NCBI GenBank assembly: GCA_023954045.1
Contig: JAMLIR010000017.1
Location: 1 to 64,000, forward strand
DNA length: 64,000 bases
Source of the DNA: Burkholderiaceae bacterium
GTDB lineage: Bacteria > Pseudomonadota > Gammaproteobacteria > Burkholderiales > Burkholderiaceae_E
Reading direction: 5' to 3'
Part shown: piece by piece, positions 6,275-48,008 of the stretch
How positions within the stretch are numbered: the stretch's first letter is position 1
Layout of the letters: every line of letters starts with the position of its first letter
Made by a program: the position numbers and the translations under genes
The notes under the pieces: generated by a model
Told to the model about the DNA's origin: nothing
Seen by the model: only the letters and a program-made list of their open reading frames with translations
Database searches by the model: none

Positions 6275-6343
6275 GCGGCGGGGGAACACGATGAAACCTC
6301 CGGGACGGCAGCGCCCGGAACCTCAACAGCAAGGAAGAGTCCA

Positions 6344-7666: not shown

Positions 7667-7731
7667 CTTTGTATCAATGACTTACTGGATATTGTTAATC
7701 CTAGAACTAGCTTGAGGAAACGGTACTGCCG

Positions 7732-8565
7732 ATGACCCGGCTGGTCGTGCGCCGCCTGCTGGTCGACCTCGAGAGTCCGTTCGCGCGGCACTGGTGCGGC
7801 GGCGACGCTTTCCGGACCGCGCTGTTCAACGCGCTGTCGATGAGCTTTCCGGTCGGCGAGCAGTTCTTCATCGACGCGGTGCGCCGCGGGCTCGACGCGC
7901 TCGGGCCCGAGCGGCGCCGCGACTTCGAGGAGGAGGCGCGCGGCTTCATCGGGCAGGAGGCGACACATCGCCGGATCCACGCGCTGTTCAACGCGCAGCT
8001 CGCGCGGCAGGGACTCGTCAACCACTGGGAAGCGCGGGCGACGGCGCGGCTCGCGCTCCTCGACGGGGCCGACGCGCGCCACTGGCTGGCGATCACCGCC
8101 GCCAACGAGCATTTCACCGCGATCCTGGCCGAATGGCTGCTGGGCAACCACGACCTGCTCGGCGACATCGAGCCCCGGCTGGCGACGATGTGGCTCTGGC
8201 ACAGTGCGGAAGAGTCGGAGCACCGCGGTACCGCGTTCGACCTCTACCGGGCGCTGGGCGGCGACGAGGCCTGGCGGCTTCGCTGGTTCCGCCGCGTCAC
8301 GCTGATCTTCCTTGGCGACACGCTGCGCCAGACCGTCGCCAACCTGCGGCGCGACGGCACGCTGTGGAGGTGGCGCACCTGGCGCGGCGCCGCGGCCTTC
8401 CTGTTCGGCCGCCGGGGGCTGGTGCGCGAAACGTTCGCGCCCTGGCGCGCGTATTTCCGGCGCGACTTCCACCCGGACACGTTGCGCACCGACCGGTCGA
8501 GCCGGTGGTTGCGCGACAACACCGCGGCCTGGTCGGCCGTGGCCGCCTCCGCGCAATCGCGCTAG
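7732..8565 (+). CDS. Predicted metal-dependent hydrolase (PF10118, ferritin-like helical protein)
   Basis: This 277-residue protein resembles the predicted metal-dependent hydrolases of PF10118/COG3687. It is mostly helical with carboxylate-histidine motifs like a di-iron bundle: Glu43 (GEQFF), Glu76/His79 (GQEATHRRIH), Glu126/His127 (ANEHFTA), and Glu160/Glu163/His164 (WHSAEESEHRG). No signal peptide is visible. The substrate of the family is not established. It is convergent with the 2-oxoacid:ferredoxin oxidoreductase genes, 10 bases apart, and not obviously co-transcribed with gltA. Confidence 0.8.
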   Translation: MTRLVVRRLLVDLESPFARHWCGGDAFRTALFNALSMSFPVGEQFFIDAVRRGLDALGPERRRDFEEEARGFIGQEATHRRIHALFNAQLARQGLVNHWEARATARLALLDGADARHWLAITAANEHFTAILAEWLLGNHDLLGDIEPRLATMWLWHSAEESEHRGTAFDLYRALGGDEAWRLRWFRRVTLIFLGDTLRQTVANLRRDGTLWRWRTWRGAAAFLFGRRGLVRETFAPWRAYFRRDFHPDTLRTDRSSRWLRDNTAAWSAVAASAQSR

Positions 8566-8575
8566 CCGCGCCGCT

Positions 8576-9631
8576 TCAGCGCAGCGACGCGTTGATCCGC
8601 TCGAGGATCGCGCCACCCGGGCACAGCGTCACTTCGTCGAGGCGGTTCATCGCGATCCCGGGGGTGCCGATCCGGTCGTGCAGGTCGCCGGCCTCGGGAT
8701 CGACGAACAGCAGCCCGGTGACGATCTCGCCCCTGGCCTGGTGCGCCATCACGTGGTTCATCGCGGCGATCCGGTCGGTCGGGTCGAAGCCGTCGGCGAG
8801 CTTGCGCAGCCTCAGCGTCGATCCATCGTGCTGGACGATCTCGGTGGCCTCGCCGGGCGGATAGTCGGCGGTGATCTCGCTGCGCGCGGGCATGAAGTCG
8901 ATGCGGTTGACCGCCTCGTTGTGCTCGCGCACGTAGTCGTAGCTCCGTGTGCTGCCAGCGTGGTTGTTGAACGCGACGCAGGGGCTGACGACGTCGATGA
9001 ACGCCGCCCCGCGGTGCGCGATCGCGCCCTCGATCAGCGGCACGAGTTGCGCCTTGTCGCCCGAGAAGCTCCGGGCGACGTAGGTCGCACCGAGCTGGAG
9101 CGCCAGCAACACGAGGTCGATCGCCGAGTCGTTGTTGACCGCGCCGCGCTTGGACTTCGAGCCGCGGTCGGCGGTCGCCGAGAACTGGCCCTTCGTCAGG
9201 CCGTAGACGCCGTTGTTCTCGACGATGTAGGTCATGTTCACGCCACGACGCATCACGTGCGCGAACTGGCCGAGACCGATCGAGGCCGAGTCGCCGTCGC
9301 CGGAGACGCCGAGGTAGATCAACTCGCGGTTGGCGAGGCTCGCGCCGGTCAGCACCGACGGCATCCGGCCGTGCACCGAGTTGAAACCGTGCGAGTTGCC
9401 GAGGAAATAGTCGGGCGTCTTGCTCGAGCAGCCGATTCCGGACAGCTTGGCGACCCGGTGAGGCTCGATGTCGAGCGCCCAGCAGGCCTGGATGATCGCG
9501 GCCGAGATCGAGTCGTGGCCGCATCCGGCGCAAAGCGTCGAGACCTTGCCCTCGTAGTCGCGGCGGGTGAAGCCGAGCCGGTTCTTCGGCAGCGTCGGGT
9601 GGTGCAGGGCGGGCTTGGCGAGGTAGGTCAT
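8576..9631 (-). CDS. korB: 2-oxoacid:ferredoxin oxidoreductase, beta (TPP-binding) subunit
   Basis: This 351-residue subunit binds thiamine diphosphate and a [4Fe-4S] cluster. The TPP motif GDGDSASIG is at 111-119 and ENNGVYGLTKGQ at 139-150. Cluster cysteines are Cys34 and Cys37 (LCAGCGHD), Cys68 (GIGCSSKTP) and one near 208 (SPCVAFN). Together with the alpha subunit it decarboxylates a 2-oxoacid to the acyl-CoA while reducing ferredoxin. 2-Oxoglutarate is the most likely substrate given the KorA-type alpha subunit, but pyruvate or other 2-oxoacids cannot be excluded. It is last of three co-directional genes, 11 bases after korA. Confidence 0.88.
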   Translation of the reverse strand: MTYLAKPALHHPTLPKNRLGFTRRDYEGKVSTLCAGCGHDSISAAIIQACWALDIEPHRVAKLSGIGCSSKTPDYFLGNSHGFNSVHGRMPSVLTGASLANRELIYLGVSGDGDSASIGLGQFAHVMRRGVNMTYIVENNGVYGLTKGQFSATADRGSKSKRGAVNNDSAIDLVLLALQLGATYVARSFSGDKAQLVPLIEGAIAHRGAAFIDVVSPCVAFNNHAGSTRSYDYVREHNEAVNRIDFMPARSEITADYPPGEATEIVQHDGSTLRLRKLADGFDPTDRIAAMNHVMAHQARGEIVTGLLFVDPEAGDLHDRIGTPGIAMNRLDEVTLCPGGAILERINASLR

Positions 9632-9642
9632 GGCTGCGGTCC

Positions 9643-11484
9643 TCAGGCGACCTTGCCGCGCTTGAGCGGCTTGACGTTGGCGCCGGAAAGGCGCTCGGCG
9701 ATCGCCTCGACGATGAAGCGCGCGGTGATCGGCGTGCCGTCGTAGTGCAGCACCGGCACCAGCCGCGCGGGGTCGACCCCGAGCTCGTTGACCAGCATCG
9801 TGCGCAGCTGGGCGTCGCGGTTCTGCTCGACGACGAACAGCGTGTCGTGCGCGGCGACGAACCGCGCGACCTCGTCGCCGAACGGGAACGCGCGCAGGCG
9901 CAGCGTGTCGAGCGGCATCTCGCGGGCCTCGAGCTGGTCGATCGCCTCGCTCATCGCCGGGCTGGTCGAGCCGTAGTAGATCGCGCCGACCCGTGCCGGC
10001 TGGGCGGCGCGCCGCTCGACCGCGGCCGGCACCAGCGCCTTCGCGGTCTCGAACTTCTTCAGCAGCCGCTGCACGTTGGCCACGTAGTCGGGGCCGGCCT
10101 CCGAGTAGCGGGCGTACGCGTCCTTCGTGGTGCCGCGCGTGAAGTACGCGCCGCGCGACGGATGCGTGCCGGGCCAGGTGCGGTAGGGGATGCCGTCGCC
10201 GTCGACGTCGAGGTAGCGGCCGAACTCGCGCCCGTCCTCCAGCATCCGGGCGGTCATCACCTTGCCCCGGTCGTAGCGGCGGCTGTCGTCCCACCTGAAG
10301 GGCGCGGTGAGGCGCTGGTTCATCCCGATGTCGAGGTCGGTCATCAGGAATACCGGCGTCTGCAGCCGGTCGGCGAGGTCGAGCGCCTGCGCGGCGAACT
10401 CGAAGCACTCGTGCGGGTCTTCGGGAAACAGCAGCACGTGCTTCGTGTCGCCGTGCGACGCGTAGGCGCAGCTGAGCAGGTCGGCCTGCTGGGTGCGCGT
10501 CGGCATCCCGGTGGACGGGCCGCCGCGCTGCACGTCGATGATCGTGACCGGAATCTCGGCGAAGTAGGCCAGCCCGATGAACTCGGCCATCAGCGACACC
10601 CCGGGGCCCGAGGTGGCGGTGAACGCGCGGGCACCGTTCCAGCCGGCACCGACGACCATGCCGATCGAGGCCAGCTCGTCCTCGGCCTGCACGATCGCGA
10701 AGCGGTTCTCGCCGGTCTCCTTGTCGACGCGCAGCTTCGAGCAGTACTTCTGGAACGCCTCGGCGACAGACGACGAGGGCGTGATCGGATACCAGGCGCA
10801 GACGGTGGCGCCGCCGTACAGGCAGCCGAGCGCCGCCGCGGAATTGCCGTCGACGAAGATCCGGTCGCCGACGTTGGCCGCGCGCCGCACGCGCAGCCCG
10901 AGCGCGTCGTCGAGGTGCTCCTGGGCGTAGCGGTATCCCTTTCGGAACGCGTCGAGGTTCGGCGTGAGCAGCTTCTCCTTGCCCTTGTACTGCTCGCCGA
11001 CCAGCTCGGCGATCGTCGCCGGGTCGATGCCGATCAGCGCGGCGAGCACGCCGACGTACATGATGTTCTTCAGCAGCTGGCGCTCGCGCGGGTCGCCGTA
11101 GGCGGCGTTGCACATCTCGGTGAGCGGAACGCCGATCGCGTGGACGTCGGCGCGCAGCTTCGAGGCGGGGAGCGGCTTCGTGCTGTCGTACAGCAGGTAG
11201 CCGCCCGGTTCGATCTCGGCGACGTCGCGGTCCCAGGTCTGCGGGTTCATCGCGACGAGCAGGTCGACGCCGCCGCGGCGGCCGAGGTACCCCTTCTCGG
11301 TGACCCGCACCTCGTACCAGGTCGGCAGGCCCTGGATGTTCGACGGGAAGATGTTGCGCGGGCTGACGGGAACGCCCATCCGCAGGAAGCTCTTCGCGAA
11401 GAGCTCGTTGGCCGATGCCGATCCGGAGCCGTTGACGTTGGCGAACTTGACGACGAAGTCGTTGACGGCTTCGATGCGCTTCAT
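9643..11484 (-). CDS. korA: 2-oxoacid:acceptor oxidoreductase, fused gamma-alpha subunit
   Basis: This 613-residue protein has two parts. Residues about 1-190 are a gamma domain (ANVNGSGSASANELF, RVTEKGYLGRRGG), and about 200-613 are the alpha part with the pyrimidine-binding YPITPSSSVAEAF near 232-244, TSGPGVSLMAEFIGL and QRGGPSTGMPTRTQQAD. This gamma-alpha fusion is the two-subunit KorAB arrangement known for oxygen-tolerant 2-oxoglutarate:ferredoxin oxidoreductases. Its ATG overlaps the stop codon of the upstream FAD gene as TGATG, so the subunits are probably made in balance. It acts in the cytoplasm. Confidence 0.88.
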   Translation of the reverse strand: MKRIEAVNDFVVKFANVNGSGSASANELFAKSFLRMGVPVSPRNIFPSNIQGLPTWYEVRVTEKGYLGRRGGVDLLVAMNPQTWDRDVAEIEPGGYLLYDSTKPLPASKLRADVHAIGVPLTEMCNAAYGDPRERQLLKNIMYVGVLAALIGIDPATIAELVGEQYKGKEKLLTPNLDAFRKGYRYAQEHLDDALGLRVRRAANVGDRIFVDGNSAAALGCLYGGATVCAWYPITPSSSVAEAFQKYCSKLRVDKETGENRFAIVQAEDELASIGMVVGAGWNGARAFTATSGPGVSLMAEFIGLAYFAEIPVTIIDVQRGGPSTGMPTRTQQADLLSCAYASHGDTKHVLLFPEDPHECFEFAAQALDLADRLQTPVFLMTDLDIGMNQRLTAPFRWDDSRRYDRGKVMTARMLEDGREFGRYLDVDGDGIPYRTWPGTHPSRGAYFTRGTTKDAYARYSEAGPDYVANVQRLLKKFETAKALVPAAVERRAAQPARVGAIYYGSTSPAMSEAIDQLEAREMPLDTLRLRAFPFGDEVARFVAAHDTLFVVEQNRDAQLRTMLVNELGVDPARLVPVLHYDGTPITARFIVEAIAERLSGANVKPLKRGKVA

Positions 11485-15094: not shown

Positions 15095-17956
15095 ATGATG
15101 AAAGCGTTCCAGTCGAACTCGTACCTGTTCGGCGGCAATGCCCCCTATGTCGAAGAGCTCTACGAGAGCTACCTGAACAACCCCGGCTCGGTGCCCGAGG
15201 CCTGGCGCGCGTGGTTCGACAGCCTGCAGGCGGTGCCGGCGGCCGACGGCAGTCCGCAGACCCGCGACATCGCGCACGCGCCGATCGTGCAGTCGTTCGC
15301 AGAGCGCGCCAGGGAAGGCACGTTGCAGCCGCGGCTGATGGGCGGCGACGCGGCGACCGCGCGCAAGCAGGTCTTCGTGCAGTCGCTGGTCGCGGCGTAC
15401 CGCAACCTCGGCTCGCGCTGGGCCGACCTCGACCCGCTCAAGCGCCAGGAGCGACCGGTGATCCCGGAGCTCGAGCCCGCCTTCTACGACTTCACCGAGG
15501 GTGAGCACGCCAACATCTACTCGGCGGCCAACACCTATTTCGGCTTCGACAACGCGCCGCTGCGCGACATCGTCAAGGCGCTGCGCGACACCTACTGCGG
15601 GTCGATCGGCGCCGAGTTCATGTACATCAGCGACCAGGCGCAGAAGCGCTGGATCCAGGAGCGCCTCGAGTCGACGCGCGCGCGCCCGAGCTACAGCACC
15701 GACAAGAAGAAGCGCATCCTCGACCGTCTCACCGCTGCCGAAGGCCTCGAGCGCTACCTGCACACCCGCTACGTCGGCCAGAAGCGCTTCTCGCTCGAGG
15801 GGGGCGAGAGCTTCATCGCCGCGATGGACGAGCTGGTGGCGCGGGCGGGCGAGTTCGGCATCCAGGAGGTCGTCATCGGCATGGCCCACCGCGGGCGGCT
15901 GAACGTACTGGTCAACACGCTGGGCAAGATGCCCAAGGAACTCTTCGCGGAGTTCGAGGGCCAGCACGCCGACGACCTGCCGAGCGGGGACGTCAAGTAC
16001 CACAAGGGTTTCTCGAGCGACATCTCCACGCCGGGAGGGCCGGTTCACCTGTCGCTGGCCTTCAACCCTTCGCACCTCGAGATCGTCAACCCGGTGGTCG
16101 AGGGGTCGTGCCGCGCGCGTATGGTTCGCCGCGGCGACCGCAACGGCGACCACGTGCTGCCGGTGCTGGTGCACGGCGACGCGGCCTTCGCGGGGCAGGG
16201 CGTCGTCATGGAGACGCTGAACCTCGCCCAGACGCGCGGCTACGGCACGCGCGGCACCGTGCACATCGTGATCAACAACCAGATCGGCTTCACGACCTCC
16301 GACCCCAGGGACACCCGCTCGACGATCTACTGCACCGACGTCGTCAAGATGATCGAGGCGCCGGTGTTCCACGTGAACGGCGACGACGCCGAGGCGGTGG
16401 TCTACGCGACGCAGCTGGCGCTGGAATTCCGGCAGCGCTTCCGCAAGGACGTCGTGGTCGACATCGTCTGCTTCCGCCGGCTCGGGCACAACGAGCAGGA
16501 CACGCCGGCGATGACGCAGCCGATGATGTACAAGAAGATCGGCGCGCACCCGGGAACGCGCAAGCTCTACGCCGACAGGCTCGTGGCGCAGGAAGTCATC
16601 AGGGAGTCCGACGCCGAGGCGATGGTCGCCGGCTACCGCAAGGCGATGGACGAGGGCAAGCACACGATCGACCCGGTCATCACGAACTTCAAGAGCAAGT
16701 TCGCGGTCGACTGGCTGCCGTTCCTGAACCGCAAGTGGACCGACAGCGCCGACACCGCGGTGCCGATCGGCGAGCTGCGCCGGCTCGGGGAGCGGATCAC
16801 CACCGTGCCGTCGGAGTTCAAGCTGCACCCGCTGGTCGAGCGCGTGATCAACGACCGGCGCGCGATGATCAACGGCGACCTGCCGCTCGACTGGGGCATG
16901 GGCGAGCACATGGCCTTCGCGACGCTGGTCGCCTCGGGCTTCGGCGTGCGCCTCTCCGGGCAGGACTCGGGCCGCGGCACGTTCACGCACCGGCACGCGG
17001 TGCTGCACGACCAGAACCGCGAGAAGTGGGACCAGGGCGCCTACATCCCGCTGCAGTTCGTCGCCGACAAGCAGGGGCAGTTCATCGTCATCGACTCGGT
17101 GCTGTCGGAGGAGGCGGTGCTCGGCTTCGAGTACGGGTACGCGTCGTCCGACCCGAACACGCTGGTGATCTGGGAGGCGCAGTTCGGCGACTTCGCCAAC
17201 GGCGCGCAGGTGGTCATCGACCAGTTCATCGCATCGGGCGAGACCAAGTGGGGGCGCGCCTGCGGCCTGGTCCTGATGCTGCCGCACGGCTACGAGGGGC
17301 AGGGACCCGAGCACTCGTCGGCGCGGCTCGAGCGCTTCCTGCAGCTGTGCGCCGAGCACAACATGCAGGTGTGCCAGCCGACGTCGCCGGCGCAGATCTT
17401 CCACCTGCTGCGGCGCCAGATGATCCGGATGTTCCGCAAGCCGCTGGTGATCATGACGCCGAAGTCGCTGCTGCGGAACAAGGACGCGGTGTCCTCGCTC
17501 GACGAGCTCGCGCGCGGCGAATTCCGCACCGTCATCGGCGAGACGGCCGCGGGAATCGACCCGAAGAGGGTCAAGCGGGTCGTCGTCTGCACCGGCAGGG
17601 TCTACTACGACCTCCTCGCCGCGCGCCGCGAGCGCGAACTCGACGACGTGGCCCTGGTGCGCGTCGAGCAGCTGTACCCGTTCGCGCACAAGGCGTTCGA
17701 GGCCGAGCTGAAGAAGTTCCCGAACGCGACGCAGGTGGTCTGGTGCCAGGACGAGCCGCAGAACCAGGGTGCCTGGTTCTACGTGCAGCACCACGTCACC
17801 GAGGCGCTCCGGGAAGGCCAGAAGCTCGGATACGCGGGGCGCGCGGCGGCCGCGTCGCCGGCCGTCGGCTACTACGACAAGCACTACGCGCAGCAGAAGG
17901 AGCTGATCGCCGCGGCGCTCGGCGAAGGCCGCTCGCGCGCCAGGAAATCGAACTGA
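15095..17956 (+). CDS. odhA: 2-Oxoglutarate dehydrogenase E1 component
   Basis: This 953-residue thiamine-diphosphate enzyme (also called SucA) decarboxylates 2-oxoglutarate and transfers the succinyl group to the lipoyl arm of OdhB. The N terminus has the E2-binding segment (NSYLFGGNAPYVEELYESYL). Active-site histidines are His265 (MAHRGRLNVL) and His327 (PSHLEIVNP). The TPP motif GDAAFAGQG is at 361-369. Length and order fit SucA. It begins the odhA-odhB-lpdA-zapE cluster, with 29 bases to odhB. Confidence 0.97.
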   Translation: MMKAFQSNSYLFGGNAPYVEELYESYLNNPGSVPEAWRAWFDSLQAVPAADGSPQTRDIAHAPIVQSFAERAREGTLQPRLMGGDAATARKQVFVQSLVAAYRNLGSRWADLDPLKRQERPVIPELEPAFYDFTEGEHANIYSAANTYFGFDNAPLRDIVKALRDTYCGSIGAEFMYISDQAQKRWIQERLESTRARPSYSTDKKKRILDRLTAAEGLERYLHTRYVGQKRFSLEGGESFIAAMDELVARAGEFGIQEVVIGMAHRGRLNVLVNTLGKMPKELFAEFEGQHADDLPSGDVKYHKGFSSDISTPGGPVHLSLAFNPSHLEIVNPVVEGSCRARMVRRGDRNGDHVLPVLVHGDAAFAGQGVVMETLNLAQTRGYGTRGTVHIVINNQIGFTTSDPRDTRSTIYCTDVVKMIEAPVFHVNGDDAEAVVYATQLALEFRQRFRKDVVVDIVCFRRLGHNEQDTPAMTQPMMYKKIGAHPGTRKLYADRLVAQEVIRESDAEAMVAGYRKAMDEGKHTIDPVITNFKSKFAVDWLPFLNRKWTDSADTAVPIGELRRLGERITTVPSEFKLHPLVERVINDRRAMINGDLPLDWGMGEHMAFATLVASGFGVRLSGQDSGRGTFTHRHAVLHDQNREKWDQGAYIPLQFVADKQGQFIVIDSVLSEEAVLGFEYGYASSDPNTLVIWEAQFGDFANGAQVVIDQFIASGETKWGRACGLVLMLPHGYEGQGPEHSSARLERFLQLCAEHNMQVCQPTSPAQIFHLLRRQMIRMFRKPLVIMTPKSLLRNKDAVSSLDELARGEFRTVIGETAAGIDPKRVKRVVVCTGRVYYDLLAARRERELDDVALVRVEQLYPFAHKAFEAELKKFPNATQVVWCQDEPQNQGAWFYVQHHVTEALREGQKLGYAGRAAAASPAVGYYDKHYAQQKELIAAALGEGRSRARKSN

Positions 17957-17985
17957 ACCGGATTCCTCTCCCGGAGTAAAGGCAA

Positions 17986-19299
17986 ATGGCTCTCATCGAA
18001 GTCAGGGTTCCGCAGCTGTCGGAGTCGGTCGCCGAGGCAACCCTGCTGCAGTGGCACAAGAAGGCCGGCGACGCCGTCGCCCGCGACGAAAACCTCATCG
18101 ACATCGAGACCGACAAGGTCGTGCTCGAACTGCCCGCGCCATCGGCCGGCGTGCTGGCGCAGGTGCTCAAGGGCGACGGCGCCACGGTCGTCGCCGGCGA
18201 GGTCATCGCGATGATCGACACCGAGGCGACGGCGGGCGCCGGCGCGCAGGCCGCGCCCGCCGCGGCAGCCGCCGCGCCGGCGGCAGCGCCTGCTGCGGCC
18301 ACTCCTGCTGCGGCAGGCGCCCCCGCTGCGCCGGCGCCGGCGCCGGCTGCCGCGGCGGCCGCCGGTGCGAAGAGCGGGGTCGCGATGCCCGCGGCGGCAA
18401 AGCTGATGGCCGAGTCGGGGCTCACGCCCGCGCAGGTGGCCGGCACCGGCCGCGACGGCCGCATCACCAAGGGCGACGTGCTCGGGGCTGCCGCCGCCGC
18501 GGCGGCCCGCCCGGCGCCCGCGGCGATCCCCACCGGCGCGCCGACGGCGAACCTGCCCGAGGTGCGCCCCGCACTCGACCTCGCGAAGCTGCTCGAGGGG
18601 CGCCCGGAGCAGCGGGTGCCGATGTCGCGGCTGCGCCAGCGCGTGGCCGAGCGACTGCTGCAGTCGCAGGCGACCAACGCGATCCTCACCACGTTCAACG
18701 AAGTCAACATGCAGCCGGTGATGGACCTGCGCAAGCGCTACCAGGAGCGCTTCGAGAAGGAGCACGGCGTGCGGCTCGGGTTCATGTCGTTCTTCGTGAA
18801 GGCCGCGGTGCACGGGCTCAGGAAATACCCGGTCGTCAATGCATCGGTCGACGGCAGCGACATCGTCTACCACGGCTACTTCGACATCGGCGTGGCAGTG
18901 GGTTCGCCGCGCGGGCTGGTCGTGCCGGTGATCCGCAACGCCGACCAGTTGAGCTTCGCGCAGATCGAGAAGCAGATCGCCGACTTCGGCAAGCGCGCCC
19001 AGGACGGCAAGCTCGGCATCGAGGAGCTGACCGGCGGGACGTTCTCGATCAGCAACGGCGGCGTGTTCGGCTCGATGCTGTCGACGCCGATCATCAACCC
19101 GCCGCAGTCGGCGATCCTCGGCGTGCACGCGACGAAGGAGCGCGCGGTGGTCGAGCACGGCCAGGTGGTGGTGCGGCCGATGAACTACCTCGCGGTGTCG
19201 TACGACCACCGGATCATCGACGGCCGCGAGGCGGTGCTGTTCCTCGTCGCGATCAAGGAGGCGCTCGAGGATCCGTCGCGCCTGCTGCTCGATCTCTGA
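17986..19299 (+). CDS. odhB: Dihydrolipoyllysine-residue succinyltransferase (E2)
   Basis: This 437-residue E2 core (SucB) of the 2-oxoglutarate dehydrogenase complex has a lipoyl domain at 1-78 with the lipoylated Lys44 in ETDKVVLE, and a very Ala/Pro-rich linker at about 80-125. A peripheral-subunit-binding domain follows near 128-168 ([20 protein letters not shown]), then a second linker and the catalytic domain from about 205, with His408 and Asp412 in YDHRIIDG. The linker DNA (about 18225-18370) is low-complexity GCC/GCG repeats, a likely place for replication slippage. Confidence 0.96.
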
Positions 19300-39683: not shown

Positions 39684-41054
39684 ATGGGCGAACAGACCAA
39701 GTACCTGCTCGACGAGAGCCGGATTCCGAAGCGCTGGTACAACATCCAGGCCGACCTGCCGAAGCCGCTGGCACCGGTGCTGCATCCGGGCACGATGAAG
39801 CCGGTCGGGCCCGACGACCTCGCGCCGCTGTTCCCGATGGCGCTGATCATGCAGGAGGTCACCACCGAGCGCGAGATCGACATTCCCGAGCCGGTGCGCG
39901 ACATCTACCGGCTGTGGCGCCCGAGCCCGCTGTTTCGCGCGCACCGCCTCGAGAAGGTGCTCGGCACCCCGGCGAAGATCTTCTACAAGTACGAGGGCGT
40001 GAGCCCGGCGGGCAGCCACAAGCCGAACACCGCGGTCGCGCAGGCGTTCTACAACCGCGAGGCCGGCATCAAGCGGCTGAGCACCGAGACCGGGGCCGGT
40101 CAGTGGGGCTCGTCGCTGGCGTTCGCCGGCGCGCTGTTCGGCATCGACGTCACCGTGTTCCAGGTGCGCGTCTCCTATGACCAGAAACCGTACCGCCGCG
40201 CGCTGATGGAGTCGTACGGCGCGCGCTGCCTGCCGTCGCCGTCGACCGAAACCGAGTTCGGCCGCAGCGTGCTCGCCAAGCGTCCCGATCATCCGGGCAG
40301 CCTCGGCATCGCGATCTCGGAGGCCGTCGAGGTCGCCGCGAAGAACGACGACACCAAGTACGCGCTCGGTTCGGTGCTCAACCATGTGCTGCTGCACCAG
40401 ACCGTGGTCGGGCTCGAAGCGATGGAGCAGCTGAAGATGGCCGACGCCTGGCCCGACGTGATCGTCGGCTGCACCGGGGGTGGCTCGAACTTCGCCGGCA
40501 TCACGTTCCCGTTCATCGGCGACGGACTGCGCGGCGGCGCGAAGCCGCGGATCGTCGCGGTCGAGCCGGCGGCCTGCCCGTCGCTCACGCGCGGCAAGTT
40601 CGCCTACGACTTCGGCGACACCGGGCACATGACGCCGCTGGCGAAGATGCACACGCTCGGGTCCACCTTCACGCCGCCTGGTTTCCACGCCGGCGGCCTG
40701 CGCTACCACGGCATGGCGCCGCTGGTCTCGCACCTGAAGGACCTGAACCTGATCGAGGCGGTCGCCTACCACCAGAAGGAGTGCTTCGCCGCCGGCATCC
40801 AGTTCGCCCGCTCCGAAGGCATCCTGCCGGCGCCGGAGGCGAACCACGCGGTCAAGGGCGCGATCGAGGAGGCGCTGCGCTGCAAGCGCGAGGGGCGCTC
40901 CGAGACGATCCTGTTCAACCTGTGCGGCCACGGCCACTTCGACATGGCCGCCTACATGGCCTACAGCGCGGGCACGCTGACCGACCAGTCGTACAGCGAG
41001 CAGGAACTCGCGATGGCGCTCGCCGGGCTGCCGAGCGTTCCCGAGCCGGCCTGA
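39684..41054 (+). CDS. TrpB2-type tryptophan synthase beta-like enzyme (PLP)
   Basis: A 456-residue pyridoxal-phosphate enzyme of the TrpB2 branch, distinct from the usual TrpB (about 400 residues) that works with TrpA. The PLP lysine is Lys113 in [11 protein letters not shown], and the phosphate loop is GCTGGGSN at 262-269. The N-terminal extension ([18 protein letters not shown]) is the TrpB2 signature. No trpA or other trp gene lies nearby. It may use free indole or serve as a serine dehydratase-like enzyme. GGGGGAG precedes the ATG. A strong hairpin follows at 41092. Confidence 0.88.
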
Positions 41055-41232: not shown

Positions 41233-42240
41233 ATGCGCGACCGCAACGAATCGCTGCTCTGGATGTACGAGAAGATGGTGGAGATTCGCCACTACGAGGA
41301 GACGATGGTCAACGTCTACCTCGAAGGGAAGCTGCCGCCGAAGATCCAGAAGGGCCTGGCTTTCGACATCGGCTCCGGCCCGGTGCCCGGAGAGATGCAC
41401 CTGTCGGCCGGCCAGGAGCCGGTGGCGGTCGGCGTCTGCGCGCACCTGAAGAAGGAAGACACCGTGGTCGGCACCCACCGCCCGCACCATTTCGCGATCG
41501 CCAAGGGCGTGCCGCTGGACAAGATGACGGCCGAGATGTTCGGCAAGGCGGCCGGCCTGGGCAAGGGCAAGGGCGGGCACATGCACCTGTTCGACCCCGA
41601 GCACCGCTTCAGCTGCAGCGGCATCATCGGCGCGAGCCTGCCGCCCGCCTGCGGCGCGGCGCTGGCCGCGAAGAAGCTCGGCCGCGACTGGGTCGCCGTC
41701 GCGTTCTTCGGCGAGGGCGCGGCGAACCAGGGGTCGTTCCACGAGTCGCTGAATCTCGCGGCGCTGTGGAAGCTGCCGGTCGTGTTCGTCTGCGAGGACA
41801 ACTACTGGGCGATTTCGGTTCCCAAGCCCTCTGCGGCGTCGATCGCGAGGATCTCCGACCGCGCGCCCGCCTACGGGATGCCGGGCGTGCACGTTCCGAA
41901 CAACGACGCGGTCGAGGTGTTCGAAGCCGCCGGCGCGGCGGTCGAGCGCGCCCGCGGCGGTGGCGGCCCGACGCTGATCGAGGTGCGCACGGACCGCTAC
42001 CTCGGCCACTTCCAGGGCGACGCGGAGGTGTACCGGCCGAAGGACGAGGTGGCGAAGCTGCGCGCCAACGATCCGATCCCGCGGCTCGCGGCGCAGTTGA
42101 AGTCGCAGAAGCTCCTCGACGACGCCCAGCGCGCAGCGCTCGAGGCGCGCGCCCGCGCGCGCGTCGACGAAGCCTACGCGTTCGCGCGCCGCGCCGACTA
42201 CCCGGCGCCGGCCGACGCGCTGGCCGACGTGTTCGTCTGA
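41233..42240 (+). CDS. Thiamine-diphosphate 2-oxoacid/acetoin dehydrogenase E1 alpha subunit
   Basis: This 335-residue E1 alpha resembles AcoA of acetoin dehydrogenase and PdhA. The TPP motif is GEGAANQGSFHE at 160-171 with EDNYWAISV after it. GSGPVPGEMHLSAGQEPVAVG and GTHRPHHFAIAKG are typical of the family. Substrate is not clear: acetoin, pyruvate and branched 2-oxoacids are all possible. It is first of four tightly packed genes that contain an E1 pair, a lone lipoyl domain and a lipoate-ligase-like protein, but no E2 or E3. Confidence 0.88.
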   Translation: MRDRNESLLWMYEKMVEIRHYEETMVNVYLEGKLPPKIQKGLAFDIGSGPVPGEMHLSAGQEPVAVGVCAHLKKEDTVVGTHRPHHFAIAKGVPLDKMTAEMFGKAAGLGKGKGGHMHLFDPEHRFSCSGIIGASLPPACGAALAAKKLGRDWVAVAFFGEGAANQGSFHESLNLAALWKLPVVFVCEDNYWAISVPKPSAASIARISDRAPAYGMPGVHVPNNDAVEVFEAAGAAVERARGGGGPTLIEVRTDRYLGHFQGDAEVYRPKDEVAKLRANDPIPRLAAQLKSQKLLDDAQRAALEARARARVDEAYAFARRADYPAPADALADVFV

Positions 42241-42267
42241 GACCGCAACTGGCAGGAGACTCCGATC

Positions 42268-43308
42268 ATGAGCGAAAAACGTGCACTGACGATGGCCCAG
42301 GCGATCTCCGAGGCGATCGCCCAGGAAATGGAGCGCGACCCGGCCGTCTTCGTGATGGGCGAGGACATCGGCCGCTACGGCGGCATCTTCGGCGCGACCG
42401 GCGGGCTGCTGGACAAGTTCGGCCCCGACCGGATCATGGACACGCCGATCTCGGAGACCGCGTTCATCGGCGCGGCGACCGGCGCCGCCGCGACCGGCAT
42501 GCGGCCGATCGCCGAACTGATGTTCGTCGACTTCTTCGGCGTGTGCATGGACCAGATCTACAACCACATGGCCAAGAACACCTACATGGCGGGCGGGAAC
42601 ATCCGGCTGCCGGTGGTGCTGATGACCGCGATCGGCGGCGGCTACAACGACGCCGCGCAGCACTCGCAATGCCTGTTCGGCACCTTCGCGCACATCCCCG
42701 GGCTGAAGGTGGTCGTGCCCTCGAACGCCTACGACGCGAAAGGGCTGATGATCCAGTCGATCCGCGACGACAACCCCGTGATGTTCATGTTCCACAAGGG
42801 GATCATGGGGCTGCCGTGGATGGCCTACTTCGAGGGAAGCACCACCGAAGTGCCCCAGGAGGCTTACACGGTCCCGTTCGGCCAGGCCCGCGTGGTCCGC
42901 GAAGGCGCCGACCTGACGATCGTCACGCTGAGCCAGATGGTGCACAAGGCGGCGCTCGCCGCTGCCGAGCTCGCGCGCGACGGCATCGAAGCCGAGGTGA
43001 TCGACCTGCGCACGCTCGTGCCGCTCGACCGCAAGGCCGTGCTGAAATCGGTCGCGAAGACCGGGCGGCTGCTGGTGGCCGACGAGGACTACCTGAGCTT
43101 CGGACTGAGCGGCGAGATCGCGGCGATCGTTGCCGAGAACCTCGACACGGTGCGGCTGCGCGCGCCGGTCAGGCGACTGGCAGTCCCCGACGTGCCGATC
43201 CCGTACAGCCGGCCGCTCGAGCGCTTCGTGATCCCGCAGGTCGAGTCGATCGTCGAGGCGGGACGGGCGCTGTGCCGCGCGCCGTTCGCGCAGGCGATGC
43301 CCGCATGA
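42268..43308 (+). CDS. 2-oxoacid/acetoin dehydrogenase E1 beta subunit
   Basis: This 346-residue partner of E1 alpha resembles AcoB/PdhB. It has MGEDIGRYGGIFGATGGL, TPISETAFIGAATGAA and the C-terminal transketolase domain with EVIDLRTLVPLDRKAVLKS. AGGAGA precedes the start codon. Its stop overlaps the start of the lipoyl-domain gene (ATGA). With E1 alpha it should form the usual alpha2-beta2 enzyme that passes an acyl group to a lipoyl arm. Confidence 0.9.
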   Translation: MSEKRALTMAQAISEAIAQEMERDPAVFVMGEDIGRYGGIFGATGGLLDKFGPDRIMDTPISETAFIGAATGAAATGMRPIAELMFVDFFGVCMDQIYNHMAKNTYMAGGNIRLPVVLMTAIGGGYNDAAQHSQCLFGTFAHIPGLKVVVPSNAYDAKGLMIQSIRDDNPVMFMFHKGIMGLPWMAYFEGSTTEVPQEAYTVPFGQARVVREGADLTIVTLSQMVHKAALAAAELARDGIEAEVIDLRTLVPLDRKAVLKSVAKTGRLLVADEDYLSFGLSGEIAAIVAENLDTVRLRAPVRRLAVPDVPIPYSRPLERFVIPQVESIVEAGRALCRAPFAQAMPA

Positions 43309-43556
43309 CGGCGATCACGCTGGGCGAAGCGGCCTGGCAGGACGTCGAGGAGGGCACCGAGGCACTGGTCGATCGCTGGCTGGTCGGGGAGGGCACCGCC
43401 GTGCGCGCCGGGCAGCCGGTGGCTTCGGTCGTGCTGGTCAAGACCACGCTCGAGGTGACGGCGCCGGCCGACGGCGTCATCGAGCGCATCCTGGTCGCGG
43501 CAGGAGAGACCTTCGCGCGCGGTGCGCCGATCGGCATGCTGCGCGAAGCTGGCTGA
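43305..43556 (+). CDS. Free-standing lipoyl-domain carrier protein (83 residues)
   Basis: A single biotinyl/lipoyl domain with nothing attached. The lysine to be lipoylated is Lys46 in the hairpin VVLVKTTLEVTAPADGVI, and the second half repeats the fold (VAAGETFARGAPIGML). The usual DK is VK here. It overlaps E1 beta by four bases and abuts the ligase gene. Its size matches the N-terminal lipoyl domain of an E2, but no linker, subunit-binding domain or acyltransferase follows, and the next frame is a different protein. It may act as a mobile acyl or electron carrier like GcvH (inference). Confidence 0.85.
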   Translation: MTAITLGEAAWQDVEEGTEALVDRWLVGEGTAVRAGQPVASVVLVKTTLEVTAPADGVIERILVAAGETFARGAPIGMLREAG

Positions 43557-44255
43557 ATGCGGGTCGGCGACACGATCGCGGACGAGCACGCCTGGGTGGC
43601 CGATGCGCTCGCCGCGCCCGTCGAACGGGCGCGGTGGCGCGTCTGGCGCTATCGCGAAGCCGAGATCGTGCTGGGCTGCTCGCAGCGGGGGTTGCTCGAG
43701 CAGGTCGCGCAACGGGTCGCGCCGGGCGTCGGCGTCTCGGTGCGCCCGTCCGGTGGCGGTGCGGTGCTGGCCGGCCCGTGGATGGTGGGCGTCAGCGTCG
43801 TGCTCGCGCCCGCCCACCCGCTGCTCGGCGCGGGCCTGGTCGCCAGCTACCGCTGGCTGGGCGAGCTGCACGTCCAATCGATGGGCGCGGCCGGCATCGA
43901 GGCGCGCGCGGTCGAGCCGCAGGCGGCGCGCGAAGCGGCCGGCGCTGCCGGTGCAACGTCGTTGCGGTGGGCGTGCTTCGGATCGTTGTCGCCGTGGGAG
44001 GTGGTCGATGCGTCGGGACGCAAGCTCACCGGCCTCGCGCAGCAGCGCCGGCGCACCGGTGTCGCCTTCTCGGCCGGCACGCTGGTCTCGCGGCCCGACT
44101 GGCGAATTCTGTGCGAGGCATTGGGCGCCCCCGGCGATACCGGGCGACTCGAGCGCGTGACGGCCGCCTGCAACGAGGCGTCCGGCGCCGCCCGGATCGA
44201 AGCGGACGAGTGGGCCCGGTCGATCGACGCGGCGCTGCGCCGGGTGCTCGGCTGA
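43557..44255 (+). CDS. Lipoate-protein ligase-like protein (BPL/LplA/LipB superfamily)
   Basis: A 232-residue protein of the biotin/lipoate ligase superfamily. RPSGGGAV at 63-70 is the ligand-binding loop; CFGSLSPWEVVDASGRKLTGLAQ (140-162) contains Lys156, which matches the conserved catalytic lysine, and RRTGVAFSAGTLV follows. It lacks the C-terminal domain of long LplA. It starts at the base directly after the lipoyl-protein stop codon. It probably charges the neighbouring carrier with lipoate or octanoate; amidotransfer instead of ligation is the alternative. Confidence 0.8.
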   Translation: MRVGDTIADEHAWVADALAAPVERARWRVWRYREAEIVLGCSQRGLLEQVAQRVAPGVGVSVRPSGGGAVLAGPWMVGVSVVLAPAHPLLGAGLVASYRWLGELHVQSMGAAGIEARAVEPQAAREAAGAAGATSLRWACFGSLSPWEVVDASGRKLTGLAQQRRRTGVAFSAGTLVSRPDWRILCEALGAPGDTGRLERVTAACNEASGAARIEADEWARSIDAALRRVLG

Positions 44256-45460: not shown

Positions 45461-46075
45461 TCAGTGGAGGTCGGCGACCAGCGAGGCGCGCACCGCAGCC
45501 GGAAGCGGGCTCGCCTCGGCGCGGTAGTTCTCGTGATCGACGCCGACCGACAGCGCGGCGCCGCGCGCCAGCGCGGCGGCCATCTCGTCGGTCAGCTCGA
45601 ACCGGACGAAGTGTACCGCCGAAGTCTTCTCCTCGTTCTCGCGCTCGAGGTCCTCGTCGGCGATCGCGTAGACCTTCGTCTGGCCTTCGACCTGCACCCA
45701 GAGGCGGTCCTCGATGCCCTTGAGCCGGGCGAGCTCGCGGCGCCGAACCGCGACGTCCTCGTATTCGATCAGCATCGTCGCCTTGAAGTTGCGGCCGTCG
45801 GGGATCAGCGGGTTGTAGGCCTCGAGCTCGTGCTCGATGCCTTCCTCCTCGAAGATCTTCTCGATGCGCAGCATCTCCTGGATCTGGTAGCGCACCGTTT
45901 GCTCGTCCTCGAACAGCAGCGTCACGTGCTCGCCCAGCCGCACCTTGCGGTTCTGCTTGTGCTCGAGCACCTTGCGCCTGAACTCGGGCCGCGCCTTCGC
46001 GTAGGCCTCGAGCGTCATCAGCGATTCACGGGTCACTTTTCCCATTTTCGTCGTTTCCATCAAAAGCGTTTCCAT
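45461..46075 (-). CDS. DUF3501 family protein
   Basis: This protein of about 204 residues matches PF12007 (DUF3501): KVTRESLMTLEAYAKARPEFR, HKQNRKVRLGEHVTLLFEDE, TVRYQIQEMLRIEKIFEEEGI and NPLIPDGRNFKATMLIEYED. It is soluble and acidic and has no cysteine, so no metal cluster of its own. A second in-frame ATG at 46060 is equally possible as start. It follows the heterodisulfide-reductase-like gene by 19 bases. This pair and rubrerythrin are repeatedly found together in proteobacteria, but the function is not known. Confidence 0.85.
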   Translation of the reverse strand: METLLMETTKMGKVTRESLMTLEAYAKARPEFRRKVLEHKQNRKVRLGEHVTLLFEDEQTVRYQIQEMLRIEKIFEEEGIEHELEAYNPLIPDGRNFKATMLIEYEDVAVRRRELARLKGIEDRLWVQVEGQTKVYAIADEDLERENEEKTSAVHFVRFELTDEMAAALARGAALSVGVDHENYRAEASPLPAAVRASLVADLH

Positions 46076-46094
46076 CGAACCCCGGCTGTCCGAT

Positions 46095-47450
46095 TCACTC
46101 GAGCCCGTAGGCCATCCGCAGCAGCGTCAGCGGATGCGCCAGCTTGCCTTCGACCGATCGTCCGGCCTCGGTCATCCCCTGATCGATGTGGTGGCCGGCG
46201 AGCTGGCAGTCGGAGGCGATCCAGTTCGGCTCGCCGCCCGGGTGGTCGCCCATCTGCCGGAATACCGGCTTGCCGATCTTCATCGCGATCTCGTGGAACT
46301 CCTTCTTCACGCCCCAGGTGCCCGCGTGCCCCGAGCAGCGCTCGATCGTGTTCACGTTGGTGCCGGGCACCATCTGCAGCATCTCGCGCGTCTTCTGGCC
46401 GACGTTCTGCACCCGCAGGTGACAGGCGACGTGGTACGAGACGTTGCCCAACGGCGTGCCGAAGTCGGTCTTCAGCAGGCCGTCCTTCGCGCGCAGCACC
46501 AAGTACTCGAACGGGTCGAACATCGCCTCCTGGACGGCCTTCACGTCGGCGTCGTCGGGGTACATCATCGGCAGTTCCTGCTTGAACATCAGCGCGCACG
46601 ACGGGATCGGCGCCAGGATCGCGTAGCCGGCGCGCGCGAGCTTCGCCAGCGCCGGGATGTTCTTCTCCTTCAGCGCGGCGACCGATTCGAGGTCGCCGAG
46701 CTCGAGCTTGGGCATCCCGCAACAGGCTTCCTTCTCGGCGAGCGTCCAGGGGATCTCGTTGTGCTCCAGGACCTTGACGAGGTCGTGGCCGATCCCCGGC
46801 TCGTTGTAGTTCACGTAACAGGTTGCGTAGATCACCACCTTGCCCGGCGTGCGCTCGCCGTCGCGCACCGGATGCGCCTTCGAAGCCCCCGCATACGAGC
46901 GGAACTTGTCGCTGGTGAACGGCGGCAGCCAGGCGTTGCGGTGCACGCCCAGCGTGTTCTCGACGACCTTGCGCACCGTCTTGTTGTGGCTGAGCATGTT
47001 GACGGCCTGCACGACGACCGGGATTCCTGCGAGCGTCCCGTTGCGGTCGGTCGCCGACAGCTGCTTGTCGCGGAACTGCGTCGGCGTGCCCTGGCGGAAC
47101 TGGATCGCCTTGCCGCGCAGCATCAGGTGCGGGAAGTCGACGTTCCAGACGTGCGGCGGCACGTACGGGCACTTCGTCATGTAGCAGACGTCGCACAGGT
47201 AGCACTGGTCGACGACCTTCCAGTAGTCCTTGCGGTCGACGCCGTCGACTTCGCCGCTGGAGGACTCGTCGACCAGGTCGAACAGGGTCGGGAACGCGTT
47301 GCACAGGCTCAGGCAGCGCCTGCAGCCGTGGCAGATGTCGAAGACGCGCTCCATCTCGTCGAGCGCCTTCGTCTCGTCGAAGAACTCGGGGTTCCTCCAG
47401 TCGAGCGGGTGGCGGGTCGGGGCTTCGAGCGAACCTTCGCGTGCGGTCAT
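46095..47450 (-). CDS. Heterodisulfide reductase/GlpC-like iron-sulfur protein
   Basis: A 451-residue soluble iron-sulfur protein. Two [4Fe-4S] motifs are near the N terminus: Cys40, 43, 46, 50 (CHGCRRCLSLC) and Cys83, 86, 89, 94 (CYLCDVCYMTKCP). Two cysteine-rich CCG-type domains follow. The first ends in ACCGMPKLE; the second has CHLRVQN and CSGHAGTWG, where CSGHAG replaces the usual CCGxxG, so one cysteine of the normal motif is missing. It likely passes electrons to or from the rubrerythrin encoded upstream. It begins downstream of the terminator-like hairpin at 47508-47534. Confidence 0.85.
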   Translation of the reverse strand: MTAREGSLEAPTRHPLDWRNPEFFDETKALDEMERVFDICHGCRRCLSLCNAFPTLFDLVDESSSGEVDGVDRKDYWKVVDQCYLCDVCYMTKCPYVPPHVWNVDFPHLMLRGKAIQFRQGTPTQFRDKQLSATDRNGTLAGIPVVVQAVNMLSHNKTVRKVVENTLGVHRNAWLPPFTSDKFRSYAGASKAHPVRDGERTPGKVVIYATCYVNYNEPGIGHDLVKVLEHNEIPWTLAEKEACCGMPKLELGDLESVAALKEKNIPALAKLARAGYAILAPIPSCALMFKQELPMMYPDDADVKAVQEAMFDPFEYLVLRAKDGLLKTDFGTPLGNVSYHVACHLRVQNVGQKTREMLQMVPGTNVNTIERCSGHAGTWGVKKEFHEIAMKIGKPVFRQMGDHPGGEPNWIASDCQLAGHHIDQGMTEAGRSVEGKLAHPLTLLRMAYGLE

Positions 47451-47507
47451 CTTCGTTCTCGGCTCAGCGGGGGGCAGCGGCGCGGCGCGCGGCGTGCCCG
47501 CAGGGAA

Positions 47508-47534
47508 TGAAAAGGGGAGCCCTGGAGCTCCCCT
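47508..47534 (-). terminator. Terminator after rubrerythrin
   Basis: On the minus strand AGGGGAGC/GCTCCCCT form perfect eight-base arms around a six-base loop, followed by TTTTC. It lies between rubrerythrin and the iron-sulfur gene. It should lower read-through, so rubrerythrin would be expressed more than the two genes behind it. Confidence 0.75.
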
Positions 47535-47588
47535 CGCGCGCTTCGCGGGCCGGGACCGGCCGGTTTCCCGGGCGCCCGGCCCGTTCGG

Positions 47589-48008
47589 TCAGGACAGCGA
47601 CTCGAGGGCCTTCGCGAACTTGTTCGCGTGCGAGCGCTCGGCCTTGGCCAGCGTCTCGAACCAGTCGGCGATCTCGTCGAAACCTTCGTCGCGGGCAGCC
47701 TTGGCCATGCCCGGGTACATGTCGGTGTACTCGTGCGTCTCGCCGGCGACGGCGGACTTCAGGTTGGCCTGCGAGCTGCCGATCGGCAGGTCGGTGGCCG
47801 GATCGCCGACTTCGGCCAGATAGTCGAGGTGGCCATGCGCGTGGCCGGTCTCGCCTTCGGCGGTCGAGCGGAACAGCGCGGCGACTTCCGGCTGGCCTTC
47901 GACGTCGGCCTTGTTTGCAAAGTACAGGTAGCGGCGGTTCGCCTGGCTCTCGCCCGCAAACGCGTCCTTCAGGTTCTGGTGGGTCTTCGTGCCTTTCAGG
48001 CTGGGCAT
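47589..48008 (-). CDS. Rubrerythrin-type di-iron protein without rubredoxin domain
   Basis: A 139-residue four-helix di-iron protein. Ligand motifs are Glu20 (AGESQANRRY), Glu53/His56 (EGETGHAH), Glu90 (AGETHEY) and Glu124/His127 (ERSHA). The usual C-terminal rubredoxin domain is absent, so it must get electrons from another protein, perhaps the neighbouring iron-sulfur protein. Rubrerythrins reduce hydrogen peroxide. AGGAGA precedes the ATG. A dyad upstream (48095-48114) overlaps its likely -35. Confidence 0.88.
   Translation of the reverse strand: MPSLKGTKTHQNLKDAFAGESQANRRYLYFANKADVEGQPEVAALFRSTAEGETGHAHGHLDYLAEVGDPATDLPIGSSQANLKSAVAGETHEYTDMYPGMAKAARDEGFDEIADWFETLAKAERSHANKFAKALESLS

Follow-up and report, generated by a model that had tools for sequence, protein, structure and literature searches.

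Four adjacent genes in a 64,000-nucleotide stretch of contig JAMLIR010000017.1 from a Burkholderiaceae bacterium (the whole stretch is called the window below) encode the two subunits of a thiamine diphosphate (ThDP)-dependent E1, a protein of 83 residues that consists of a lipoyl domain only, and a protein of the LplA/LipB/LipM family. The operon has no E2 acyltransferase core, and this state is conserved across the clade of E1 alpha sequences to which the window belongs. In many Burkholderiales, such an acetoin- or 2-oxoacid-dehydrogenase-like set has only a small free lipoyl carrier left of the usual E2, frequently beside a gene for the enzyme that probably loads it with the cofactor. The core-less set is a real, conserved and apparently undescribed variant of a known system. 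With about an even chance, it is an acetoin-dehydrogenase-type system with a split E2 minus the acyltransferase core, which is completed by a general E2 core and the general E3 of the cell. No description of an E1 with a lone lipoyl protein and no core was found in literature searches that covered mostly papers outside subscription journals, which is weak evidence of novelty.

Gene content of the operon

The four genes lie on the forward strand, and both the open reading frames (ORFs) and the Pfam domains agreed with the products that the original prediction, made from the window alone, had assigned to them (Table 1). The tight packing it described was found for the E1 beta and lipoyl genes, which overlap by four bases, and for the lipoyl and ligase-like genes, which abut with zero gap; the E1 alpha and E1 beta genes are separated by a spacer of 27 bases (42241-42267). 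As predicted, no E2 catalytic core was detected within the operon with Pfam, and the sole core in the window is that of OdhB. A core hidden by a frameshift was considered and ruled out: the lipoyl-to-ligase junction leaves no space for an E2 core gene, there is no room between the genes in general, and the same four-gene layout was found again in many other assemblies. The ratios of nonsynonymous to synonymous substitution rates (dN/dS, pairwise Nei-Gojobori against four near relatives) were 0.07-0.12, 0.08-0.14, 0.20-0.51 and 0.25-0.42 for the four genes in turn, and all four look to be under purifying selection. Given the recurrent layout and these ratios, the operon is neither a product of chance nor an assembly artefact.

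AcoA and AcoB were the nearest to the E1 of the window among the E1 proteins compared. Its E1 alpha is 41-42% identical to the E1 alpha adjoining AcoC in loci L095 and L128 and 29-30% identical to the types of host contig C12 and genome G083, while its E1 beta shares 51% identity with the one adjoining AcoC in L095 and 39-46% with the five other host E1 betas compared. The NCBIfam models for E1 alpha of pyruvate dehydrogenase (PDH) remained below cut-off for the window E1 alpha and the AcoA of L095 alike, and no model separates the two.

Fused, split and core-less relatives

Genome contigs were scanned with a four-sequence E1 alpha alignment, which yielded at least 511 relatives; the best 80 loci were kept, a set that is biased to near relatives. 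Three forms occur in this set. A fused lipoyl-core E2 is present in two loci (L111, where Pfam places Biotin_lipoyl and 2-oxoacid_dh in one protein of 329 aa, and L123, fused by profile) and a lone lipoyl protein with a stand-alone core in 14; the stand-alone cores of L114 and L143 have 2-oxoacid_dh as their only Pfam domain (234 and 226 aa). No core was seen in 60 loci, 38 with the ligase gene and 22 in which none was seen, and the remaining four are truncated. Fewer than 400 bases follow the lipoyl gene in four core-less rows (L091, L102, L138 and L142), so that 56 of the 60 have room to show a core. The ligase gene was seen in 53 of the 80 loci; seven of the 22 loci without it, namely these four together with L093, L098 and L127, have fewer than 1500 bases after the lipoyl gene.

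A tree of 93 E1 alpha rows was calculated by a quick search with Shimodaira-Hasegawa-like approximate likelihood ratio test (SH-aLRT) support only; its deep branches are long and their placement is unsure. The copy of genome G126, which has a broken E1 alpha frame, was left out of alignment and tree. The window lies within a clade of 51 rows (SH-aLRT 99) with 44 readable rows, none of which has a core; four further rows are too short after the lipoyl gene and three are truncated. Core absence across the whole clade argues for an old, selected state and not for a frameshift. A nested clade of 22 rows (SH-aLRT 100) shows no ligase in its readable rows. Core-less rows were also found outside the 51-row clade, which implies either repeated loss of the core or a nested position of the split form.

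The split form is widespread. E1 alpha matches were obtained in 602 plasmid records, and eight of these loci were examined, with E1 alphas 55-59% identical to that of the window. In seven of them the E2 is split into a protein annotated as 'lipoyl domain-containing protein' and a '2-oxo acid dehydrogenase subunit E2' encoded on its own. These seven are from Phaeobacter, Paracoccus, Sphingomonas, Roseibium, Rhodococcus, Natrialba and Halobaculum and so represent alphaproteobacteria, Rhodococcus and haloarchaea; for Phaeobacter and Rhodococcus, Pfam places lipoyl domain and core on separate proteins. The eighth locus, from Haladaptatus halobius, has genes for both E1 subunits and for a lipoyl protein, and none for a core alongside. 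The core is kept in Natrialba and Halobaculum; the Haladaptatus locus is a case of core absence outside bacteria. Comamonas, Azoarcus and Rugamonas are among the further genera with a split E2. When the lipoyl protein was used as plasmid query, 57 records matched, every one below 60% identity, and no relative was found among viral contigs. In the class of the host, an E1 alpha match at E 1e-90 was obtained in three of 369 genomes, the host among them. Genome G500 repeats the four-gene order, its LplA-B_cat protein scoring 60 bits, and G532 has E1 alpha, E1 beta and lipoyl genes with no ligase seen adjoining. An order from fused through split to core-less was considered and rejected on account of the wide occurrence of the split form; the likely step is that a split-form operon lost its core.

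The split-E2 operons share the order E1 alpha, E1 beta and lone lipoyl with the window, and in Phaeobacter an LplA-B_cat protein follows the core, but they keep a stand-alone core gene, which the window and its clade lack. The original prediction had regarded the composition as one without a characterised counterpart. It was right about the missing core and had overlooked both this widespread form and the AcoC-type E2s, which have no canonical core. Acetoin dehydrogenase (AcoXABC; AcoC corresponds to NF011457) has in common with the window an AcoA/AcoB-like E1 and a lipoyl domain closest to the AcoC model. AcoC is also without a 2-oxoacid_dh core and is physically linked to operon relatives in L095, L128 and L132. 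It differs by a hydrolase domain fused to the lipoyl domain, which the window carrier lacks, and the window has neither AcoR nor AcoX but its own LplA/LipM-family gene. Lipoyl synthase genes of their own have been described for acetoin clusters elsewhere (PMC3543383, PMC6595428). PDH, 2-oxoglutarate dehydrogenase and branched-chain 2-oxoacid dehydrogenase resemble the window in E1 alpha/beta and lipoyl domain, whereas the window is without their acyltransferase core. The H protein of glycine cleavage and LbpA of sHdr sulfur oxidation are free small lipoyl proteins like the window carrier, and LbpA has its own ligase within the gene cluster (PMC6067878). However, the partner of the window carrier is an E1 and not GcvP or sHdr, and the carrier scored far below the cut-off of the GcvH family (TIGR00527, 17.1 bits vs 115.85).

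A neighbouring gene was counted if its cluster occurred in six or more of the 80 loci; ORFs of at least 70 aa within 9 kb or less were used. The four-gene order recurs, as was considered in the original prediction, but a conserved fifth partner does not accompany it in the 28 clade loci examined (outside the no-ligase sub-clade). Apart from the four genes, the genes for an ABC ATPase and a TrpB-like protein are the commonest real neighbours, each in six of these 28. An AcoR-like sigma-54 activator was found in 20 of the 80 loci by clustering and 22 by profile, and an AcoX-like gene of NAD-kinase fold in 11 (Pfam Sigma54_activat and NAD_kinase). We call these genes AcoR- and AcoX-like; no NCBIfam model names them. 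The gene acoX is typical of acetoin dehydrogenase clusters (PMC3543383). L095, L128 and L132 have an acoX-, acoA-, acoB- and acoC-like gene set that is divergent from the operon. The AcoC of L095 exceeded the NCBIfam equivalog cut-off (462 vs 307 bits), and in all three loci AcoC consists of a lipoyl domain and an alpha/beta hydrolase without a 2-oxoacid_dh core; acetoin systems thus already depart from the standard E2. A GMC oxidoreductase is present in 12 of the 14 split-type loci, and lipoyl synthase genes lie near the split-E2 operons of Rugamonas and Rhodococcus opacus.

Carrier, ligase-like protein and candidate acceptors

Biotin_lipoyl is the sole Pfam domain over cut-off in the 83-residue carrier. 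Its best NCBIfam match was the AcoC model with 43 bits (cut-off 307), which concerned the lipoyl part only. The AlphaFold2 model (predicted local distance difference test, pLDDT, 96.7) matched lipoyl and biotinyl domains in Foldseek, and the protein has the lipoyl domain with conserved Lys that is found in 2-oxoacid dehydrogenase complexes. Lys46 is kept in all 78 aligned rows (76 lone lipoyl proteins including that of the window, and two fused E2s). It is preceded by Val in 74, Ile in three and Leu in one of them. At the same position, DK is found in the sets of host contigs C16, C1 and C12, in AceF and in the AcoC of L095, QK in that of C49, and EK in the more distant G500 and G532. Pfam listed no subunit-binding domain for the lone carrier, the fused protein of L111 or the stand-alone L114 and L143 cores, so that tight tethering of the parts may never have existed in this lineage.

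The ligase-like protein has the motifs R-x-SGGGAVLxGPW and WAC...E...RKxxGLAQ, and both its Cys140 and its Lys156 are without variation in 50 of 50 rows and again in 31 of 31. Its model (pLDDT 93.8) had 2p0l, 2art and 2p5i as best Foldseek matches, with template modelling (TM) scores of 0.62-0.69 for these top three LplA/LipL-type folds vs 0.34-0.40 for the biotin ligases listed. Fold, Pfam domain, the RxSGGGAV and RKxxGLAQ motifs and a single catalytic domain are common to the window protein and the LplA/LipB/LipM/LipL family. The protein is set apart by the NCBIfam models, none of which was over cut-off (the only match was LplAB with 24 bits), and by a host that already has LipB and LipA, encoded adjacently on contig C5 and both over their NCBIfam cut-offs. 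For the Phaeobacter counterpart, the best matches were LipL-type transferases, and these were weak, at 40 and 37 bits against cut-offs of 400 and 450. In LipM and LipL, the catalytic Cys lies in a loop preceding the Lys. Cys140 may be the counterpart of this Cys; sequence alignments to solved LipL-type structures end before it. LplA uses a lysine and LipB a Cys-Lys dyad (PMC9307952). Proteobacteria are described as having LipB and never LipM in PMC10332631, and the branch of the window protein seems to lie outside the coverage of that text. A fair guess is that the protein may be an octanoyl or lipoyl transferase.

It does not belong strictly to the operon, although the original prediction had called it dedicated. 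A match was found in 11 of 300 genomes of the order, two of them weak (G079 and G157). Of the nine others, the window, G126 and G153 have it in this operon, G083 has it next to a full E1-E2-E3 set, and in five genomes it is apart from any E1-lipoyl operon; two of these five belong to the same genus as the host and have it at the same syntenic place without E1 and lipoyl genes. Neither in these five genomes nor in G083 was there a close E1 alpha (best 43%). Conversely, the 22 loci mentioned above have the E1-lipoyl genes with no ligase seen. In the window, genes for DUF3501, an Fe-S oxidoreductase (CCG domain) and rubrerythrin follow one another, and a similar trio flanks the ligase gene in the two same-genus genomes (L053 and L055). 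In L077, a radical S-adenosylmethionine (SAM) protein gene (PF04055) follows the lone lipoyl gene at the usual position of the ligase gene.

The host genome (G000) comprises 4.02 Mb in 50 contigs, and a PF00198 search found five 2-oxoacid_dh cores in it (Table 1). The original prediction had allowed for a full E2/E3 pair specific to this E1, nearby but outside the window; no host orthologue of the core lost from the operon was detected, since the L114 core as query had a best match of 37% identity. The highest host pair was the C16 core with the L143 core (42% over 198 residues), compared with 53-56% within the lost-core family. No AcoC was found in the host (NF011457, E 1e-40). Of 26 genomes, those of L128 and L095 exceeded the cut-off of this model, and G671 had a partial match that stayed below it.

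The PF00198 search was extended to 24 genomes from which the loci come, 19 of them core-less and five of the split type. As a positive control, the stand-alone core was recovered as an open frame of 234-270 aa in all five split-type genomes. Exactly two cores, with OdhB and AceF as best matches, were found in six of the 19 core-less genomes: G674, G675 (Curvibacter delicatus), G679, G680, G681 (Tepidiphilus olei) and G683, which are two isolates and four metagenome assemblies. Among the remaining core-less genomes, extra E2s of the C12, C16 or C49 type were present or, in G665, G667, G668, G670, G671, G672 and G682, further cores.

The host has several other E1 sets. On C16, a second split E2 with a stand-alone core of 260 aa and a lone lipoyl protein of 79 aa (MTDKV) is continued by E1 alpha, E1 beta and genes that look like a short-chain dehydrogenase/reductase (SDR) and a tripartite ATP-independent periplasmic (TRAP) transporter; its core is 82% identical to one core of G668 (L198). 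On C1, E1 beta, E1 alpha and a lone lipoyl protein of 80 aa (MTDKI) adjoin TRAP-like and SDR-like genes, and no E2 core was seen among them, which makes this another core-less set with a different E1 family. The C49 set has an E2 whose lipoyl part and core fall in two frames. As this E2 type is one frame in L191 and L195, the host reading is perhaps due to an assembly indel, and this E2 was used for description only. The set adjoins a phosphopantetheine-type carrier protein and an AMP-binding enzyme. No lipoyl protein gene was seen adjoining the E1 genes of C12. Upstream of the window operon lies a gene for a TrpB-like pyridoxal phosphate (PLP) enzyme, which is at that place in six of the 80 related loci.

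Table 1. Positions of the operon genes, host E2 cores and other features
Feature	Location	Positions	Strand	Support or remark
E1 alpha (ThDP-binding subunit), AcoA-like, 335 aa	window	41233-42240	+	Pfam E1_dh 253 bits
E1 beta, AcoB-like, 346 aa	window	42268-43308	+	Pfam Transket_pyr 146 bits, Transketolase_C 120 bits
Lone lipoyl carrier protein, 83 aa, Lys46 in VVLVKTTLEV	window	43305-43556	+	Biotin_lipoyl 44 bits
LplA/LipB/LipM-family single-domain protein, 232 aa	window	43557-44255	+	LplA-B_cat (PF21948) 37 bits, cut-off 27
OdhB	window	17986-19296		over NCBIfam cut-off
AceF	host C1			over NCBIfam cut-off
E2 of C12	host C12			below all NCBIfam cut-offs
E2 core of C16	host C16			inside own operon
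E2 core of C49	host C49			inside own operon
TrpB-like PLP enzyme	window	39684-41054		TIGR01415
DUF3501, Fe-S oxidoreductase, rubrerythrin	window	45461-48008		
Second split-E2 set	host C16 (L047)	15574-18534 (7575-10535)		
E1 beta, E1 alpha, lone lipoyl	host C1 (L046)	84312-86532 (6313-8533)		
E1 alpha/beta and E2	host C49 (L050)	108787-114039		
E1 alpha and E1 beta	host C12 (L048)	227071-229103 (7072-9104)		
Core-less set, Haladaptatus halobius	L206	4513-6799		
Lipoyl synthase, Rugamonas	L145	15149-16264		TIGR00510 408 bits
Lipoyl synthase, Rhodococcus opacus	L207	7566-8576		
Radical SAM protein	L077	11357-12289		PF04055

Proposed route and alternatives

As the E2 is reduced to a free carrier, the cell must finish the reaction with borrowed parts or in a new way. 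Borrowing, one of the options named in the original prediction, fits best, given that no conserved fifth partner was found and that AceF and OdhB are the only cores found in some genomes. The ThDP-dependent E1 would act on an acyloin, for instance acetoin, or on a 2-oxoacid; by cleaving it, the enzyme would reductively acylate the lipoyl group on Lys46 of the free carrier. The acylated carrier would diffuse, and a general E2 core, with AceF as the most likely one for an acetyl group, would pass the acyl group to coenzyme A (CoA), while the general E3 of the cell would re-oxidise the dihydrolipoyl carrier. The LplA/LipM-family neighbour would attach the cofactor to the carrier, whose VK attachment site differs from the DK of ordinary E2s, perhaps by a transferase reaction of Cys140 and Lys156 after which LipA would act. 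The analysis establishes the gene content, the three forms of the E2, the core absence across the clade and in the host genome, the invariant residues and the purifying selection; the substrate, the lipoylation, the way to CoA and the chemistry of the fourth protein are what we infer from them.

Several observations weigh against borrowing from AceF in an acetoin-type system. The cores found in G669 and G676 did not include AceF, and those of G666 did not include OdhB, so that some of these assemblies are incomplete or without the proposed acceptor. The E2 cores in the C16, C49 and C12 operons of the host could be the acceptor instead, and L116 has a partial core-like ORF at the contig edge, 4.7 kb upstream of E1 alpha. 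No AcoR- or AcoX-like gene was detected in the window with the profiles of the relatives or in the loci of its clade, and the link to acetoin therefore runs via more distant relatives; the E1 alpha is only 41-42% identical to AcoA. Transfer of the acyl group from the carrier to the AceF core is itself presumed, as is the lipoylation of the carrier.

A free carrier that serves a non-E2 acceptor, with the acyl group hydrolysed or moved to a non-CoA compound or with electrons leaving via a new oxidoreductase, is possible and considerably less probable. It would agree with the absence of the core in all 44 readable clade rows and with the six genomes in which only two general E2 cores were found. 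However, no conserved candidate acceptor gene adjoins the operon, and in the split relatives a carrier of this type, likewise with a hydrophobic residue ahead of the Lys, goes together with a real E2 core, for which reason this residue is no sign of another acceptor. Slightly more doubtful is an ordinary complex completed by a dedicated E2 core or an AcoC elsewhere in the genome. The stand-alone core of C16, which has its own lone lipoyl and E1 genes, could be shared, and its 42% identity to the L143 core points that way; yet no host core reaches the 53-56% of the lost-core family, AcoC was over cut-off in L095 and L128 and not in the host, G671 having a partial match below cut-off, and six genomes have AceF and OdhB as the only cores found.

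That the operon is a decaying, functionless remnant is very improbable: the core was lost and a sub-clade has no ligase seen, but dN/dS is 0.07-0.51 across the four genes and the attachment and putative catalytic residues are invariant. It is just as hard to believe that the small protein carries biotin instead of lipoate. The Pfam domain and the Foldseek matches do span biotinyl and lipoyl domains, whereas the partners are a ThDP-dependent E1 and a protein of the lipoate ligase family, whose model is nearer to LplA/LipL folds than to the listed biotin ligases, and the fused relative L111 is an E2.

In 2-oxoacid dehydrogenase complexes, the textbook swinging arm is tethered to a large core. 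Natural genomes show here the arm freed as a separate protein, then the core gone and the arm retained for the age of the clade. The need for tethering and for a dedicated core, the ability of AceF to serve a foreign carrier, and the role of the LplA/LipM branch alongside LipB become testable in this way. There is also a low chance that the whole clade works with a ThDP-dependent E1 and a free lipoyl protein, with no E2 acyltransferase of any kind and with a non-E2 acceptor for the acyl group or the electrons. If this is true, the set would add another type to the lipoate-dependent systems already known, with a branch of Cys-Lys lipoylating enzyme of its own in Proteobacteria.

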